A stretch of 64,000 nt of DNA from Lachnospiraceae bacterium MD308 (GTDB lineage: Bacteria > Bacillota > Clostridia > Lachnospirales > Lachnospiraceae), in contig KE159795.1 in NCBI GenBank assembly GCA_000403475.2, forward strand, positions 1,770,058 through 1,834,057. The letters are read 5' to 3'. Below are positions 1 to 54,414 of this stretch, one piece after another; position 1 is the first letter of the stretch, and each line of letters begins with the position of its first letter. A program made the translations under genes and the position numbers. The notes beneath the pieces are model-generated. The model was not told where the DNA came from. It was given only the letters and a program-made list of their open reading frames with translations, and ran no database searches.

Positions 1-362
1 TCCCGTTTATTTCAATATCATTATTATCGTTCCAATCATATTCATCTATATTCTGCAGCTCATCATACAAATTACTGTCCTCTATGAGATCACCGTTTCT
101 TATTATCCGTTTATCAAAAGCAGTAAAATTCTCCTCCGAAGGTACAATCTCCGCCTGCGGATAGCTGCCGAACCAGACACAATCCCATGTAACTTTTTGA
201 TCCGCTATCATATCGGGATCTTCTACAATCACCGGATTGTTTAAATTAGATACTGACAAAAGGGCTGGCTCCTGTGCATTTACAGCCCCCCCCCAACATA
301 CCGGCGCACATCACCGCTGTGAGAAACAGCGATGTCATATTACGCGTTACTTTACTTTTCAT
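1..362 (-). pseudogene. Secreted protein, N-terminal part, out of frame at a C9 tract (possible phase-OFF state)
   Basis: An ATG at 362 with a GGAGG site about 8 bases upstream begins a signal peptide (MKSKVTRNMTSLFLTAVMCAG). As written, the frame stops after about 38 codons, just past a run of nine G on the coding strand (286-294). With eight G the frame stays open to the window edge. It then gives a signal-peptidase-like site (VNA-QEP) followed by an exported domain containing VWFGSYPQAEI. That motif resembles the WFG-YPQ segments of DUF6273-type surface proteins common in Lachnospiraceae. The C-terminus lies outside the window. The break may be slipped-strand phase variation, true decay or a base-call error; the open frame after the tract argues against old decay. 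Function unknown; family resemblance is from memory. Confidence 0.6.
286..294 (-). repeat. Homopolymer tract C9 (G9 on the coding strand)
   Basis: Nine consecutive C lie inside the signal-peptide codons of the secreted protein. A single-base change restores a frame open to the edge of the window. Poly-G/C runs of this length are classical slipped-strand mispairing sites. Confidence 0.75.
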
Positions 363-9882: not shown

Positions 9883-10017
9883 TTGAATAACGATTTTGAA
9901 CTCAAAGCGGTGGAGGAAGCTAAACCGTCCGAAGACATGATGAATATTCCGGGAATGAAAGACGAATTACGCCGTCCAATGATGTTATTAGTAAAAGCCA
10001 GCAAAAAATACTCCTGA
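9883..10017 (+). pseudogene. C-terminal remnant of a class I SAM-dependent methyltransferase
   Basis: A 44-codon open tail without a proper start, reading FELKAVEEAKPSEDMM and then IPGMKDELRRPMMLLVKAS before a stop. This closely resembles the conserved end of small UbiE-type SAM methyltransferases of Firmicutes (GMxDExRRPMMLLVKA). An in-frame stop sits at 9871-9873 and no upstream SAM-binding motif is visible, so the gene is dead. Identification is by memory of the C-terminal motif. Confidence 0.45.
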
Positions 10018-10021
10018 ACAA

Positions 10022-10067
10022 TAAAAAGAAAAAGCATGTGCAGCAAAGCACACGCTTTTTCTTTTTA
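10022..10067. terminator. Bidirectional terminator at the end of the V-ATPase operon
   Basis: 20-base arms (10022-10041 and 10048-10067) with one mismatch and a 6-base loop. They are A-rich on one side and T-rich on the other, so the hairpin works in both directions. It lies 32 bases past the stop of subunit D. Confidence 0.8.
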
Positions 10068-10098
10068 TGATTATTAATTCATCAATCAAGCTTTCTCT

Positions 10099-10716
10099 TT
10101 ATTTTCCCTGCATCTTCTTAATCACCTTCAGCCTGGTAAACTCTTCGCGCTCTTTTTCTTCCAACGCATTATTAATCGTGTAGACCAGATTGGTATACAT
10201 AGGGATTGTAATATTTTTCAAGGCATTTGCCCGTTTCTGCGTCTTCTTGATATTGGCGGCAAGGCGGTAAGCAGAATTTTCCACTGTAGACAGCTTTACC
10301 GTAAGCTCCTTTACCTCCCGGAACGCCTCTCTTGCTATATCAATAGATTCCCCTGTGCTCCCGAAGGAATAGGTCAGCTTATTCTGCTTGGAATCATACT
10401 TAACATGAGGTATCTCGGTTCCCATGATACTCCGCGTCTGGATGACGATGGATTCCTCGATCGGCACCGTAAACGCCAGCTCCTGAACCTTGCTGATCCC
10501 CATATCTATATTGGCACGCTGCAGACATGTGTACGCACGAGTAAATGTTGTATCAATCTGTTCCTGTATGTCTTTCGCTTCGCTGATCAGACTCATCAGC
10601 TCTTTCAAAAGGATGTTCCTCTTCTTATCCATCAGTTCATATCCCTGACGGGCAAGCACCAGCGAGTTTTTTGCAAGCATCAGATTGCCTTTTGTTGGGA
10701 ACTCCCGCGGGTCCAT
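10099..10716 (-). CDS. ntpD: V-type ATPase subunit D (central stalk)
   Basis: 205 residues, close to the family length. The helical coiled-coil pattern (DPREFPTKGNLMLAKNSL at the start, LVARQGYELMDKKRNIL next, and two long C-terminal helices) is typical of the rotor shaft that sits in the A3B3 hexamer. The opening PTKGNLMLAK signature is diagnostic. It follows subunit B as usual, but instead of the normal short gap there are nearly 500 bases of tandem repeats, so its expression may differ from the rest of the operon. Start supported by GGAAGGTG before the ATG. Confidence 0.93.
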   Translation of the reverse strand: MDPREFPTKGNLMLAKNSLVLARQGYELMDKKRNILLKELMSLISEAKDIQEQIDTTFTRAYTCLQRANIDMGISKVQELAFTVPIEESIVIQTRSIMGTEIPHVKYDSKQNKLTYSFGSTGESIDIAREAFREVKELTVKLSTVENSAYRLAANIKKTQKRANALKNITIPMYTNLVYTINNALEEKEREEFTRLKVIKKMQGK

Positions 10717-10748
10717 ACGACACCTTCCTTTCTTTTATTGCACCCTTT

Positions 10749-11189
10749 GAACCTTCGAGCCTCCGGCTCTTCCGCCGTGACCTCCCGGCTTCGCCGCTCA
10801 GTCTCGTCGAAGCTGGTCATATCGGCTCTCTTCCGTTTCGAACCTTCGAGCCTTCGGCTCTCTCGACGTGACCTCCCGGCTTCGCCGCTCAGTCTCGTCG
10901 AAGCTGGTCATATCGGCTCTCTTCCGTTTCGAACCTTCGAGCCTTCGGCTCTCTCGACGTGACCTCCCGGCTTCGCCGCTCAGTCTCGTCGAAGCTGGTC
11001 ATATCGGCTCTCTTCCGTTTCGAACCTTCGAGCCTTCGGCTCTTCCGCCGTGACCTCGCGGCTCCGCCGCTCAGTCTCGTCGAAGCTGGTCATATCGGCT
11101 CTCTTCCGTTTCGAACCTTCGAGCCTTCGGCTCTTCCGCCGTGACCTCGCGGCTCCGCCGCTCAGTCTCGTCGAAGCTGGTCATATCGG
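10749..11189 (-). repeat. Five tandem 91-bp repeats in the V-ATPase operon (last copy 77 bp)
   Basis: Units begin at 10749, 10840, 10931, 11022 and 11113; the fifth stops at 11189. Three variants are visible: unit 1, units 2-3 and units 4-5. In the mRNA sense each unit holds small hairpins: gagcc-GAA-ggctc, cggc-GAA-gccg, and an outer tgacc/ggtca pairing. Differences between units keep the stems: loops change GAA to GGA, and in units 4-5 a base change adds a G-C pair (gcggc-GGA-gccgc). 91 is not a multiple of 3 and the plus-strand frames are mere translations of the repeat, so it is not coding. Probably transcribed between subunits B and D. Confidence 0.9.
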
Positions 11190-11221
11190 TGTTCGAATAA
11201 ACGCAGGCGTTTATTCGAACA
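11190..11221 (-). repeat. Perfect 15-bp stem-loop over the subunit B stop codon
   Basis: tgttcgaataaacgc (11190-11204) pairs with 11207-11221 across two bases. It covers the last codons and stop of subunit B and abuts the repeat array. No T run follows on the minus strand, so it is more likely an mRNA 3'-end stabiliser or processing site than a terminator. Confidence 0.75.
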
Positions 11222-12614
11222 TCGCTGCGCCCAGCGGTTCTTCACTTGGATAGTATATATCGAGCAGTTTTGTGTCGATTCTGTCGAGTTCTTCTCTGGG
11301 AAGGAGGTGTAGAAGTTCCCAGCCGAGATTCAACGTCTGCTCTATGGTCCTGTTTTCCGTCGGGCCCTGGCCGATATAGCGTTTCTCGAATTCTAAACCG
11401 AACTGCAGGTATTTTTTATCTAACGGCGCCAATTCATCTTCGCCGATAACGGATGCAAGATTTCTTGCTTCTCCTACTTTTGCATAAGCGGAGAAAAGCT
11501 GGTTTGCGAGGCTCTGATGATCCTCTCTTGTGTATCCCGCTCCGATTCCGTCCTTCATCAGACGTGAAAGTGACGGCAGGATACTGATGGGCGGATAGAC
11601 AGACTGCCCATGAAGGTTTCTGTCCAGTACGATCTGCCCTTCTGTGATATACCCGGTCAAATCTGGGATGGGGTGGGTGATGTCGTCATTGGGCATCGTA
11701 AGGATTGGGAGCTGCGTCACGGAGCCGAGAGAGTCTTCCACGATTCCCGCACGCTCATAAATCGTCGCAAGCTCACTGTACAGATATCCCGGATAACCTT
11801 TTCTTGAAGGAATCTCTCCTCGTGAGGACGACACTTCACGCATGGCCTCTGCAAAAGAGGTCATATCTGTCAGTATAACGAGAATATGCATGTTACATTC
11901 GAATGCAAGATATTCTGCAACCGTCAGGGCAACTTTCGGCGTGATCAGACGTTCTACCACCGGATCATTCGCCAGATTAAGGAACATACATACATGGTCG
12001 GAAACCCCGCTCTCCTCAAAGGTCTTACGGAAGAACTCCGCAACATCGTGCTTAACGCCCATAGCTCCGAACACGATAGCGAATTCCTCCTGTGAATCAT
12101 CGCCCAGAGACGCCTGCTTTACAATCTGTGCCGCAAGCTGATCGTGAGGCAGACCATTTCCGGAAAAGATCGGGAGCTTCTGGCCGCGAATCAGCGTCGT
12201 CAGGCCATCGATTGCTGAGATTCCGGTACGGATATAGTTTCTTGGGTACTCCCTCTTCACTGGATTGAGGGGAAGGCCGTTTACATTGCGGCGCTCCTCC
12301 GCCATCACAGAGCCAAGCCCGTCGATGGGAACTCCCACTCCGTTAAATGTACGCCCCAGCATATCCGCCGATACCGGTACTTCCATCGGATGCCCTGTAA
12401 GCTTTGTATGCGTATTCTGGAGAGACATATTGTCCGTCCCCTCGAATACCTGAATGACCGCCCGCTCATTGTCCAGCTCCACGATACGGCCCATTTTCTT
12501 AATATTTCCATCAACAACAAACTCAACAATCTCATCGAAAAATGCTTCCTGCACACCCTCGAGCACCACAAGAGGCCCGTTAATATTGCTGAGTCCAAGA
12601 TATTCTATTCCCAT
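11211..12614 (-). CDS. ntpB: V-type ATPase subunit B (regulatory hexamer subunit)
   Basis: 467 residues, the usual size. Non-catalytic nucleotide-binding subunit that alternates with A in the V1 head. Seen: N-terminal beta-barrel start EYLGLSNINGPLVVLEGV, the degenerate P-loop region FSGNGLPHDQLAAQI (no GKT, as expected for B), and the SVYPPISILPSLSRLM segment typical of B subunits. Starts 15 bases after subunit A. The stop codon lies in a perfect stem-loop followed by the 91-bp repeats. Confidence 0.95.
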   Translation of the reverse strand: MGIEYLGLSNINGPLVVLEGVQEAFFDEIVEFVVDGNIKKMGRIVELDNERAVIQVFEGTDNMSLQNTHTKLTGHPMEVPVSADMLGRTFNGVGVPIDGLGSVMAEERRNVNGLPLNPVKREYPRNYIRTGISAIDGLTTLIRGQKLPIFSGNGLPHDQLAAQIVKQASLGDDSQEEFAIVFGAMGVKHDVAEFFRKTFEESGVSDHVCMFLNLANDPVVERLITPKVALTVAEYLAFECNMHILVILTDMTSFAEAMREVSSSRGEIPSRKGYPGYLYSELATIYERAGIVEDSLGSVTQLPILTMPNDDITHPIPDLTGYITEGQIVLDRNLHGQSVYPPISILPSLSRLMKDGIGAGYTREDHQSLANQLFSAYAKVGEARNLASVIGEDELAPLDKKYLQFGLEFEKRYIGQGPTENRTIEQTLNLGWELLHLLPREELDRIDTKLLDIYYPSEEPLGAAMFE

Positions 12615-33001: not shown

Positions 33002-33022
33002 AAAACCACCCTTATTCAAATT

Positions 33023-33107
33023 ACTTCAATTTTACTTCAATGTAACTTCAAAGTCAACTTCAATGTAACTTCAAACACACTTCAGTTCATGTTGAAGTAA
33101 CTGAAGT
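33023..33107. repeat. Iteron array: six acttcaa/acttcag direct repeats plus two inverted copies
   Basis: Copies on the plus strand start at 33023, 33034, 33045, 33057, 33068 and 33080 (spacing 11, 11, 12, 11, 12). Inverted copies ttgaagt and ctgaagt start at 33092 and 33101. One helical turn per repeat implies a row of protein sites on one face of the DNA. It lies directly upstream of the AlbA_2-type regulator gene. Confidence 0.85.
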
Positions 33108-53184: not shown

Positions 53185-54414
53185 TCAATACAGCATCCTC
53201 TCAATCTCTTCGCTGTCAATATTGTCCTTTGTCATCCAGACATACCCGGTATCAATATTTGCTTCATTTGCCATTCCGAGCGCTGCCCTTGCTGCCGCTA
53301 TGACAGACGCATACCCCATACCATAGGGGTTCTGTACAATAAGTCCCGCAATTTCGCCTTCTTTCACAGCCCGCGCTTCCTCTTCATCTGCATCGTAACC
53401 AATCACCGATATCCCGGACACAGACCGGCGCTTTATCCCTTCCACCGCCAGGACAACCGTCTCCCCGTTTGTGGCATAGCACCCCTTCATATTCGGATGC
53501 TTTTTCAAAATGTAATCTATAATATTATCCCTGGTTACATCCTCCTCCTTAATTCTCTCTTCCTCCGCCAGCTCTGTTCCCGAAGGTTCTTCATCGTCAA
53601 GCCGATAGAGCCCTTTATTGACCTCATCAGAGACACTTTTTTTCATCTCATCTAAGCGGTACGCCCCCGCCACCGTCATATTCGGATATTCTTTTTTCAA
53701 TGTTTCCGCAAATACCCGCTCCCTGACATCAGCAGTCTTTGACTTGGAGTCATGAGAAAAAATCACAATCTCTCCTTCCTCCCCCACGGCCTTTGCCATA
53801 TGCCGCGCCGCCTCACTTGCAGACGCCTCATTATCTGTTGACACCATTGCCATCAGCCCTTTGTAATCACTTCCCGAATCAAATGCGACAACCGGGATAT
53901 TATTCTCCGCCGCCAAATCAAACTGCACCTCGCAAGCATTTGCATCAGTAATAGCTATAGCCACGGCAACAGGATATCTTGCCAGCTCTTCGTCCAGGAT
54001 ATTCACCTGCTCGTCAACGCTTTCCGCCTCCAAAGGGCCGTTATATGTCACTTTAACCTTATCTCCGCCTTTGTACCCTAATGTTTTATTAATATCCTCT
54101 GCCGCCTGCTCTGCTCCTTTTTTTACCTCGTTCCAGAATGCCTTTCCTTCCGATTTACCAATCACCGAGATATACGCGCCTTTCTCCAGCGCAAGTCCAT
54201 CCGCATTATTGTAAGCTGACGGCTCAATCACATCCAGCTTCGGCTGATACTCTTTCTTCTTTACATCCACATCCCTTTCCGTTTCTTCAACCTGTTCTGT
54301 TTTTTCTGTAGTCTGTTCTGTCTTTTCCTCTTTTGGACTGTTCCCCGAAGAACAGGCACCAAGCACCAAAGACAGGCACAGTACGCCTGCTATAATGTAT
54401 TTTCTCATTTTCAT
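53185..54414 (-). CDS. Sugar-binding lipoprotein, type I periplasmic-binding fold (Peripla_BP_4)
   Basis: 409 residues. Lipoprotein signal KYIIAGVLCLSLVLG-AC (lipobox), a Glu/Thr/Lys-rich linker, then a ribose/xylose-binding-protein-like fold (ISVIGKSEGKAFWNEVKKG, GLMAMVSTDNEASA, IVQNPYGMGYASV). No permease or ATPase gene is adjacent, so it may feed a transporter elsewhere or act as sensor component. The ligand cannot be inferred. Confidence 0.88.
   Translation of the reverse strand: MKMRKYIIAGVLCLSLVLGACSSGNSPKEEKTEQTTEKTEQVEETERDVDVKKKEYQPKLDVIEPSAYNNADGLALEKGAYISVIGKSEGKAFWNEVKKGAEQAAEDINKTLGYKGGDKVKVTYNGPLEAESVDEQVNILDEELARYPVAVAIAITDANACEVQFDLAAENNIPVVAFDSGSDYKGLMAMVSTDNEASASEAARHMAKAVGEEGEIVIFSHDSKSKTADVRERVFAETLKKEYPNMTVAGAYRLDEMKKSVSDEVNKGLYRLDDEEPSGTELAEEERIKEEDVTRDNIIDYILKKHPNMKGCYATNGETVVLAVEGIKRRSVSGISVIGYDADEEEARAVKEGEIAGLIVQNPYGMGYASVIAAARAALGMANEANIDTGYVWMTKDNIDSEEIERMLY

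Follow-up and report, generated by a model that had tools for sequence, protein, structure and literature searches.

Stem-loops at processed 3' ends of transcripts have been described in Clostridium cellulolyticum; 28 of 33 carry no U-run, the upstream transcript is found at a higher level, and the processed operons include that of the F-type ATPase (PMC4423207). SLOFE, a predictor based on such stem-loops, names ATP synthases (PMC8219983). The structured element described here, located between the ntpB and ntpD genes of Lachnospiraceae bacterium MD308, resembles these stem-loops of selective RNA processing and stabilisation (SRPS) of Clostridium in being a stable non-terminator stem-loop at the 3' end of a gene in an operon for a multi-subunit complex, a group that includes an F-type ATPase (PMC4423207, PMC8219983). 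It differs from them in being a multi-helix RNA that is conserved and has relatives built on the same plan elsewhere.

Another close system is the Clostridiales-1 RNA (RF01699); Table 1 of Weinberg et al. 2010 rates it as a probable RNA for which cis-regulation and a riboswitch nature are both improbable (PMC2864571). In Rfam, Clostridiales-1 is typed as 'Gene; sRNA'. The features seen in RF01699 are a closing stem, a long hairpin H1 with a GCUUGC apex, a hairpin H2 with UGAG...CGAA, and a hairpin H3. Within the portions of the literature available, a search found no published function for RF01699 and no tie of this family to the V-ATPase; a search on a hairpin between ntpB and ntpD returned nothing.

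BOX, ERIC and bcr elements are modular intergenic repeats. The element of the ntpB/ntpD junction (hereafter, the B-D junction) is similar to them in having dispersed structured relatives and a tandemly repeated inner module. The differences are that no second site of the B-D sub-type was found in the MD308 genome, and that pairing is kept at one operon position.

Layout of the array at the ntpB/ntpD junction

The window, i.e., the whole 64,000-nt stretch of MD308 DNA that was analysed, contains a minus-strand V-ATPase operon with the gene order C-I-K-F-E-A-B-D, as assigned from gene position and NCBIfam matches. A, B and D score above a curated NCBIfam cut-off for subunits of V-type ATP synthases, and the upstream genes E, F, K, I and C on the same strand match their NCBIfam families below the cut-offs. 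The nearest named relatives are Lachnospiraceae. In addition, a second, distant homologue of subunit D (27% identity) is encoded in the MD308 genome (G000:C3:168394-168996, minus strand) and is perhaps part of a second V-type ATPase operon.

According to Tandem Repeats Finder, positions 10749-11189 of the window form a repeat with a period of 91, 4.8 copies, 97% matches and 0% indels (score 805). This tandem array (10749..11189, minus strand) is in the sense orientation to the operon and lies between the genes of the V-type ATPase subunits B (ntpB, 11211..12614, minus strand) and D (ntpD, 10099..10716, minus strand). The first-pass annotation had proposed five 91-bp repeats that separate these two subunits. 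The NCBIfam-supported genes on both flanks confirm the separation, and the number of copies is indeed five, with the correction that four of them are 91 nt long and one is 77 nt long.

The 77-nt copy is the first one on the RNA (minus) strand and lies directly 3' of the long hairpin H1 (11176..11235, minus strand), which starts inside ntpB. The left arm of H1 consists of the last ntpB codons, including the stop codon, and thus encodes the C-terminal tail of subunit B; in the predicted fold, the UAA stop codon (11211..11213, minus strand) is paired within H1. The H1 apex reads CCUG in the window, CUUG in the congeners G002, G004 and G005, and CGUG in G001. Only the first copy is accompanied by H1. 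Each copy has, in the 5' to 3' direction of the RNA, H2, a hairpin with a tandem GA/GA internal loop, and then H3. The conserved core hairpin H2 (GACUGAGC ... GCGARGUC) is located at 11136..11175 in copy 1 and at 11045..11084, 10954..10993, 10863..10902 and 10772..10811 in copies 2, 3, 4 and 5, respectively (all minus strand). H3, which in copy 1 (11121..11133, minus strand) has the form GAGCC-GAA-GGCUC, occupies positions 11030-11042, 10939-10951, 10848-10860 and 10757-10769 in copies 2-5 (minus strand); its loop is GGA in copy 5 and GAA otherwise. The H2 loop varies between GGA and GAA among the copies, and copies 1-2 have an extra G-C pair. Such stem differences had been read beforehand as a sign of selection on RNA structure; they are present, but too few to show selection by themselves.

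Each copy ends with GGUUC (11113..11117, minus strand, in copy 1). This motif can pair with the GAGCC of its own unit, as in the unit folds, or with that of the following unit, as in the long fold; the GAGCC partners are located at 11097-11101, 11006-11010, 10915-10919 and 10824-10828 (minus strand). Both H1 plus H2 of copy 1 (folding z = -6.4, 0 of 200 shuffles as stable) and the whole array (z = -6.5, 0 of 100 shuffles as stable) are more stable than shuffled sequences. A CRISPR array was rejected, as the repeat units abut and have no spacers, and a coding repeat was rejected because 91 is not a multiple of 3. Two further short tandem repeats were seen in the window, at 33015-33075 and 54282-54327, with units of 11 bp and 21 bp, respectively.

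Relatives at the same junction and conservation of pairing

A search of the MD308 genome with the unit DNA, as had been suggested for the repeat, found the array only and no near copies elsewhere. The sole off-array match of model R1 in this genome had an E-value of 2.85. R2 (a core model) and R3 (a model trained on B-D elements), both trained on bearers, likewise detected nothing but the array at the thresholds applied; of the first-look candidates, 15 of 1126 were scored for R2 and 10 of 595 for R3. As no second significant site was found in the MD308 genome, a dispersed repeat of the REP/MITE type was rejected for this sub-type. Among the bearers, those examined with R2 or R3 showed the sub-type at the B-D site only; for G002 and G004, the DNA unit was the sole query. 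The exact pattern GACTGAGC..GCGAAGTC is absent from the MD308 genome because its copies do not read GCGAAGTC. With GCGARGTC instead, the pattern occurs in 7 of 299 family genomes, at the B-D junction in five and elsewhere in G044 and G048. R2 matched 12 of 397 genomes, 8 at the B-D junction and G148, G157, G261 and G271 elsewhere; R3 matched 15 of 387, 9 at the B-D junction and G038, G148, G157, G263, G343 and G376 elsewhere.

Altogether, the element is present at the same B-D junction and in the sense orientation in 13 genomes from 7 genera, in 1, 2, 3 or 5 copies. Six genomes of the MD308 genus contain five copies (MD308), three (G002), one each (G001, G004, G005) and none (G003), and these relatives support the supposition that copy number may vary. 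The bearers outside the genus, found by the pattern search, by R2 and R3 and from named loci, are G166, G197, G205 (2 copies), G273, G371 (2 copies), G439, G394 and Merdimonas faecis, whose locus L054 wholly contains L245 (G438); the two loci were therefore counted as one bearer. G394 and G439 were recovered by R3, and neither was in its training set.

In G003 (L013), the B-D gap is 27 nt long and the element is absent; as judged by eye, the end of ntpB leads into what seems to be left of the last hairpin. In this genome, the tail of ntpB is EEPKDRGF vs. EEPLGAAMFE-like in the bearers. The element is also absent from G040, a congener of G394. The 29 other B-D junctions range from an overlap to a gap of 111 nt. 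No element was found in these 29 gaps by the structural descriptor introduced below; in 27 of the loci (L052 and L053 not included), R2 gave no match, and R3 gave a single match with an E-value of 2. The earlier statement that other operons have almost no gap at this place is mostly right, the exceptions being several Mediterraneibacter-type loci (L058, L059, L061, L064, L069, L070, L074 and others), whose nominal B-D gaps are about 0.3-2.3 kb; some of these gaps look coding by eye. Since gaps of such length occur, the B-D junction tolerates insertions. As for L168 (G304), with a gap of 111 nt, a long hairpin was seen by eye right after the ntpB stop codon, with no H2; it is perhaps a decayed element.

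A tree of B+D sequences was constructed with 40 rows, including L052 and L053; the rows of MD308, G002 and G205 represent the best BLAST segment only (539-596 aa), and those of L043 and G359 are identical. On this tree, the 11 bearers then known require 6 changes, of which well-supported branches force no fewer than 5, vs. a mean of 9.7 in shuffles (3 of 500 as low). The origin of the bearers as one clade is thus unsupported, and the 6 changes imply either one gain with losses or several gains.

The pairing of the element was analysed in the alignment A4 of 11 first copies. Two-sided changes were found in 15 of 26 pairs (shuffles: mean 8.0, sd 1.5, 0 of 500 as high), and the covariation score was 0.426 vs. 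0.237 in shuffles. The share of cells paired was 89.2% vs. 27.1-43.3% for slid partners, a comparison that favours the A4 structure because this structure was written after inspection of the folds and the alignment of the same sequences. One of the five covariation measures, the number of further pair types, showed no excess (23 vs. 23.1 in shuffles). In the upper H1 helix, all 6 pairs have two-sided changes. The H2 core is nearly invariant, H1 stems otherwise having diverged; the alignment A3 (22 rows), which bears on the evidence for this core, includes 3 antisense matches. The two-sided changes across genera support the first-pass proposal of selection on RNA structure, and pairing among homologous copies, named beforehand as the point on which that proposal could fail, is preserved. 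Beyond that proposal, the element starts inside ntpB and includes the stop codon of that gene, has same-site relatives in 7 genera and follows the Clostridiales-1 plan.

Four H1 pairs change on both sides among the five congeners that bear the element. The left partner is coding at three of the four, and one of these three is paired in only 3 of 5 congeners. The third residue from the end of ntpB is Met, Ala, Ala, Ser or Thr in these genomes, and residues near the ntpB end change jointly with the opposite, non-coding arm of H1. Taken together, the joint two-sided changes and the varied ntpB residues suggest that RNA pairing constrains the last ntpB codons at least as much as the protein does.

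A closing stem, P1, was also considered. In the minimum-energy folds, GAACC of the ntpB codons (11236..11240, minus strand), its possible left arm, pairs with GGUUC of the last copy in the window and with GGUUC of the sole copy in G001 and G005. Strict pairing of the ntpB end with the sequence 3' of H2 reaches 15 bp and 16 bp in G371 and Merdimonas, which none of 1000 shuffles attained in either case. It amounts to 7 bp in G205, G166 and G273 (46, 91 and 33 of 1000 shuffles, respectively) and to 5-6 bp, not above chance, in the other six loci, those of the MD308 genus included. P1 is clearly above chance only in G371 and Merdimonas, and is no more than a possible feature of B-D elements in general.

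These data bear on the reading of the element as a translation-responsive switch, which appears quite improbable. Because the stop codon lies in H1, ribosomes finishing ntpB would melt H1 (and P1), so that formation of H1/P1 would report ntpB translation and set the expression of ntpD. In agreement with this, folding predictions place the stop codon in a paired part of H1 for every one of the 11 first copies (in G001, two bases out of three), the amino acids at the ntpB end change together with the opposite arm, and the ntpB end has the long P1 pairing in G371 and Merdimonas. Such a switch is at odds with the chance-level P1 of the MD308 genus and with the predicted state of the ntpD ribosome site, which is unpaired in the MD308 fold and, in several congeners, is bound to early codons of ntpD rather than to the element. 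The search for an alternative structure of ntpD gave none.

Kinship with the Clostridiales-1 RNA

At the gathering threshold, no Rfam family matched the window. RF01699, with a gathering score of 48 bits, gave no match at E<=5 in positions 10600-11350, none at E<=1 in seven other B-D loci or in L142 and L151, and none at E<=5 in L233 and L246. A match of RydC to the array (E 4.3) was rejected as due to chance.

The plan of the B-D element is nevertheless that of Clostridiales-1: the order H1-H2-H3 (within a closing stem in Clostridiales-1, and a possible one in B-D elements), the CUUG apex of H1 (in 7 of 11 B-D first copies, according to the descriptor) and H2 with the tandem GA/GA mismatch. 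The distance from the apex to the GA motif is 44-46 nt in B-D elements vs. 39-45 nt in RF01699, and the H3 triloop is GAA in the MD308 genus and GAA or AAA in the canonical RF01699 copies read. The B-D element differs from Clostridiales-1 in occupying one operon site in the sense orientation only, with a stop codon within H1. In addition, short inner loops and a conserved GAC/GUC stem mark its H2, it lacks the outer H3 stem as well as the TGATG/CATCA closing stem, and the array contains tandem units without H1 and is not recognised by the Rfam model.

The shared plan was formulated as a descriptor, namely, a CUUG-capped hairpin followed 38-48 nt on by a tandem-GA hairpin. It marks 7 of 11 element gaps with exact CUUG, 9 of 11 with C..G, and 0 of 29 other B-D gaps, its limits having been chosen after both groups had been seen and later narrowed. 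In the MD308 array, the apex is CCUG and the distance is 44; the two elements missed are those of G001, with a short apical stem, and G166, with a broken inner pair. In shuffles, the descriptor occurred in 0 of 500 per locus, except once with 1 of 500. It marks 30 of 40 RF01699 loci, i.e., 27 of 35 distinct elements, as 5 of the 40 loci repeat an element already included, and also L191 (3008), which is below the Rfam gathering call. In 1.14 Mb of background (both strands counted), a single place was found, L107, itself RF01699. This copy (L107:3606-3778, plus strand; 135.4 bits) is canonical and is located directly 3' of ntpD in another lineage.

Profile matches link the two groups only through intermediates. 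On canonical RF01699, R3 gave at-site matches in 2 of 40 loci, weak ones with E-values of 0.0035 and 0.034. R2 gave none in 34 loci, and it was rejected as a bridge to canonical RF01699. An unassigned place apart from the RF01699 copy of its locus, L208:2758-2828 (plus strand), was matched by both R3 (22.8 bits, E 3.8e-4) and R2 (19.1 bits). Both R3 and RF01699 match elements of G157, G148 and G343, and only those of G157 exceed the Rfam cut-off. The dispersed elements of G157 are matched by R2, and R3 gave full-length matches in 6 of the 7 G157 loci given (E 3e-9 to 1.4e-4). RF01699 scores 60.1 bits in L145 and 51.7 bits in L155, both over the cut-off, and 45.1 bits in L159, under it, with no match at E<=1 in L152; the R3 E-values for L145, L155, L159 and L152 are 2e-8, 2.7e-7, 2.2e-5 and 3.2e-9, respectively. 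The elements of G343 (RF01699 37.9 bits, R3 E 7.6e-4) and G148 (32.7 bits, 1e-4) are under the Rfam cut-off. The dispersed elements of the G157 loci L145, L152, L155, L159, L181 and L183 are intermediate between RF01699 and the B-D sub-type; two units lie in tandem, 80 bp apart, in L155, and L145 and L152 are located beside tRNA genes. Considering the same plan and the intermediates, but scant direct model matches, the B-D element is, judging by sequence comparison, a divergent, locus-fixed sub-type of Clostridiales-1-like RNA and not an RF01699 member by the Rfam rule.

RF01699 is dispersed, with several copies in many Lachnospiraceae genomes. At E<=0.01, it was detected in 164 of 299 sampled genomes of this family, 130 of them with a score over the cut-off, and in none of the 14 control genomes; scoring was limited to nine candidates per genome, so that the numbers of copies are minimum values. 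The MD308 genome has at least 3 canonical copies at E<=0.01, the best at G000:C4:102934-103087. The gene orientations around 29 high-scoring RF01699 loci were distributed as 8, 7, 6 and 5, with 3 having one side unknown, according to crude longest-ORF gene calls in 29 of 30 loci (L198 omitted); the near-equal numbers are as expected of dispersed repeats. In the congener G005, the canonical copies L216 and L217 have TGATG...CATCA ends, and a downstream hairpin GGGGTCAAAA..TTTTGACCCC repeats and complements the left arm of H1, as seen by eye; this may represent either MITE-like ends or an alternative fold.

As for the amplification of H2, inspection by eye of the G148 locus L236 showed a single H1 and, after it, two or more tandem-GA (H2-type) units, the layout of the window array, with no ntpB or ntpD beside; similar tandem-GA units were seen by eye in L148 of the same genome. 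Given this layout in G148, the window is probably not the only place where the H2 module was amplified.

The multi-copy nature and unbiased orientation of RF01699, together with these tandem units away from ntpB/ntpD, speak for a neutral or selfish relic, i.e., an old insertion of a dispersed Clostridiales-1-type repeat that expanded and contracted by slippage and has no operon function. The patchy presence of the element and its loss in G003 point in the same direction. Against this stand the H1 and H2 pairing kept across genera by two-sided changes despite the divergence of H1 stems, the near-invariant H2 core, and the exclusively sense orientation at the B-D site. Weighing these, we consider such a relic unlikely, albeit a serious candidate.

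Possible role in the V-ATPase operon

In the V-ATPase complex, subunits A and B are present in three copies each and subunit D in one. The first-pass annotation had offered tuning of D relative to A and B, or a platform for a small RNA or a protein, as possible roles, and both remain conjectural. The reading that we tentatively prefer, at somewhat less than even confidence, is that a divergent RF01699-type RNA became fixed in the sense orientation at the ntpB/ntpD junction in part of the Lachnospiraceae, with its H2-H3 module amplified to five copies in MD308, and serves as a cis-acting device that stabilises the message and decouples A/B from D. At the 3' end of the C-I-K-F-E-A-B message, the array would form an intercistronic structure of very high stability and, after a putative processing step, may shield the upstream RNA from 3'-to-5' exonucleases. 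It would also separate ntpD from translational coupling with ntpB. As a result, D may be made at a lower level than A and B, both the direction and the size of this effect being presumed, and extra copies would strengthen the exonuclease barrier in a dose-dependent manner.

The consensus scan of positions 9900-11400 found no terminator-like site on the operon strand; the only such site is on the opposite strand, at 10037. The Shine-Dalgarno-like sequence AAGGAAGG of ntpD (10723..10730, minus strand) lies outside the array. Both facts argue for read-through of the array and translation of D from its own site. A stable stem-loop at a gene 3' end inside an operon, with no terminator U-run, is one feature of SRPS stem-loops, which are further marked by a processing site and a higher level of upstream transcript, and the element has this form. 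On the other side, the element is dispensable, being lost in G003 and absent from G040, and its presence on the B+D tree is patchy, which speaks against the preferred reading.

An internal, possibly partial, transcription terminator between B and D would have a precedent in Ruminiclostridium, where few-U internal terminators set the ratios of ABC importer components (PMC9045158). An intrinsic terminator was rejected for positions 9900-11400, where no GC-rich stem with a U-run was found on the transcribed strand, and no U-rich sequence follows H1 and H2 in the window. This makes termination at the junction highly improbable.

The conserved tandem GA core, repeated five times, and the Rfam type of Clostridiales-1 would fit a binding platform or a source of processed small RNA, whose ligand, a protein or a partner RNA, would attach to the tandem G.A loops of H2, each copy adding sites. 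We regard this as very unlikely: there is no known partner, and promoter-like sites in 9900-11400 number 2 vs. 1.0 (sd 1.0) in shuffled sequences, with one on the operon strand (11278-11250).

A bolder reading, speculative and unlikely as a whole, is that a mobile-looking orphan RNA has been co-opted as the 3' structure of ntpB, adjustable in dose, sensitive to ribosomes and holding the stop codon, where the H2-H3 copy number would act as a dial of the subunit ratio and selection on RNA would shape the C-terminus of the protein. If true, this would provide a genetic handle on Clostridiales-1 function. A sub-type fixed beside genes of known stoichiometry, in a genus whose genomes carry 0, 1, 3 and 5 copies, represents a natural experiment, and the combination of fixed site, known stoichiometry and copy-number spread makes the function of an RF01699-type RNA testable. 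The locus also appears to be an instance of RNA pairing that has moulded the final codons of a core subunit of the ATPase.
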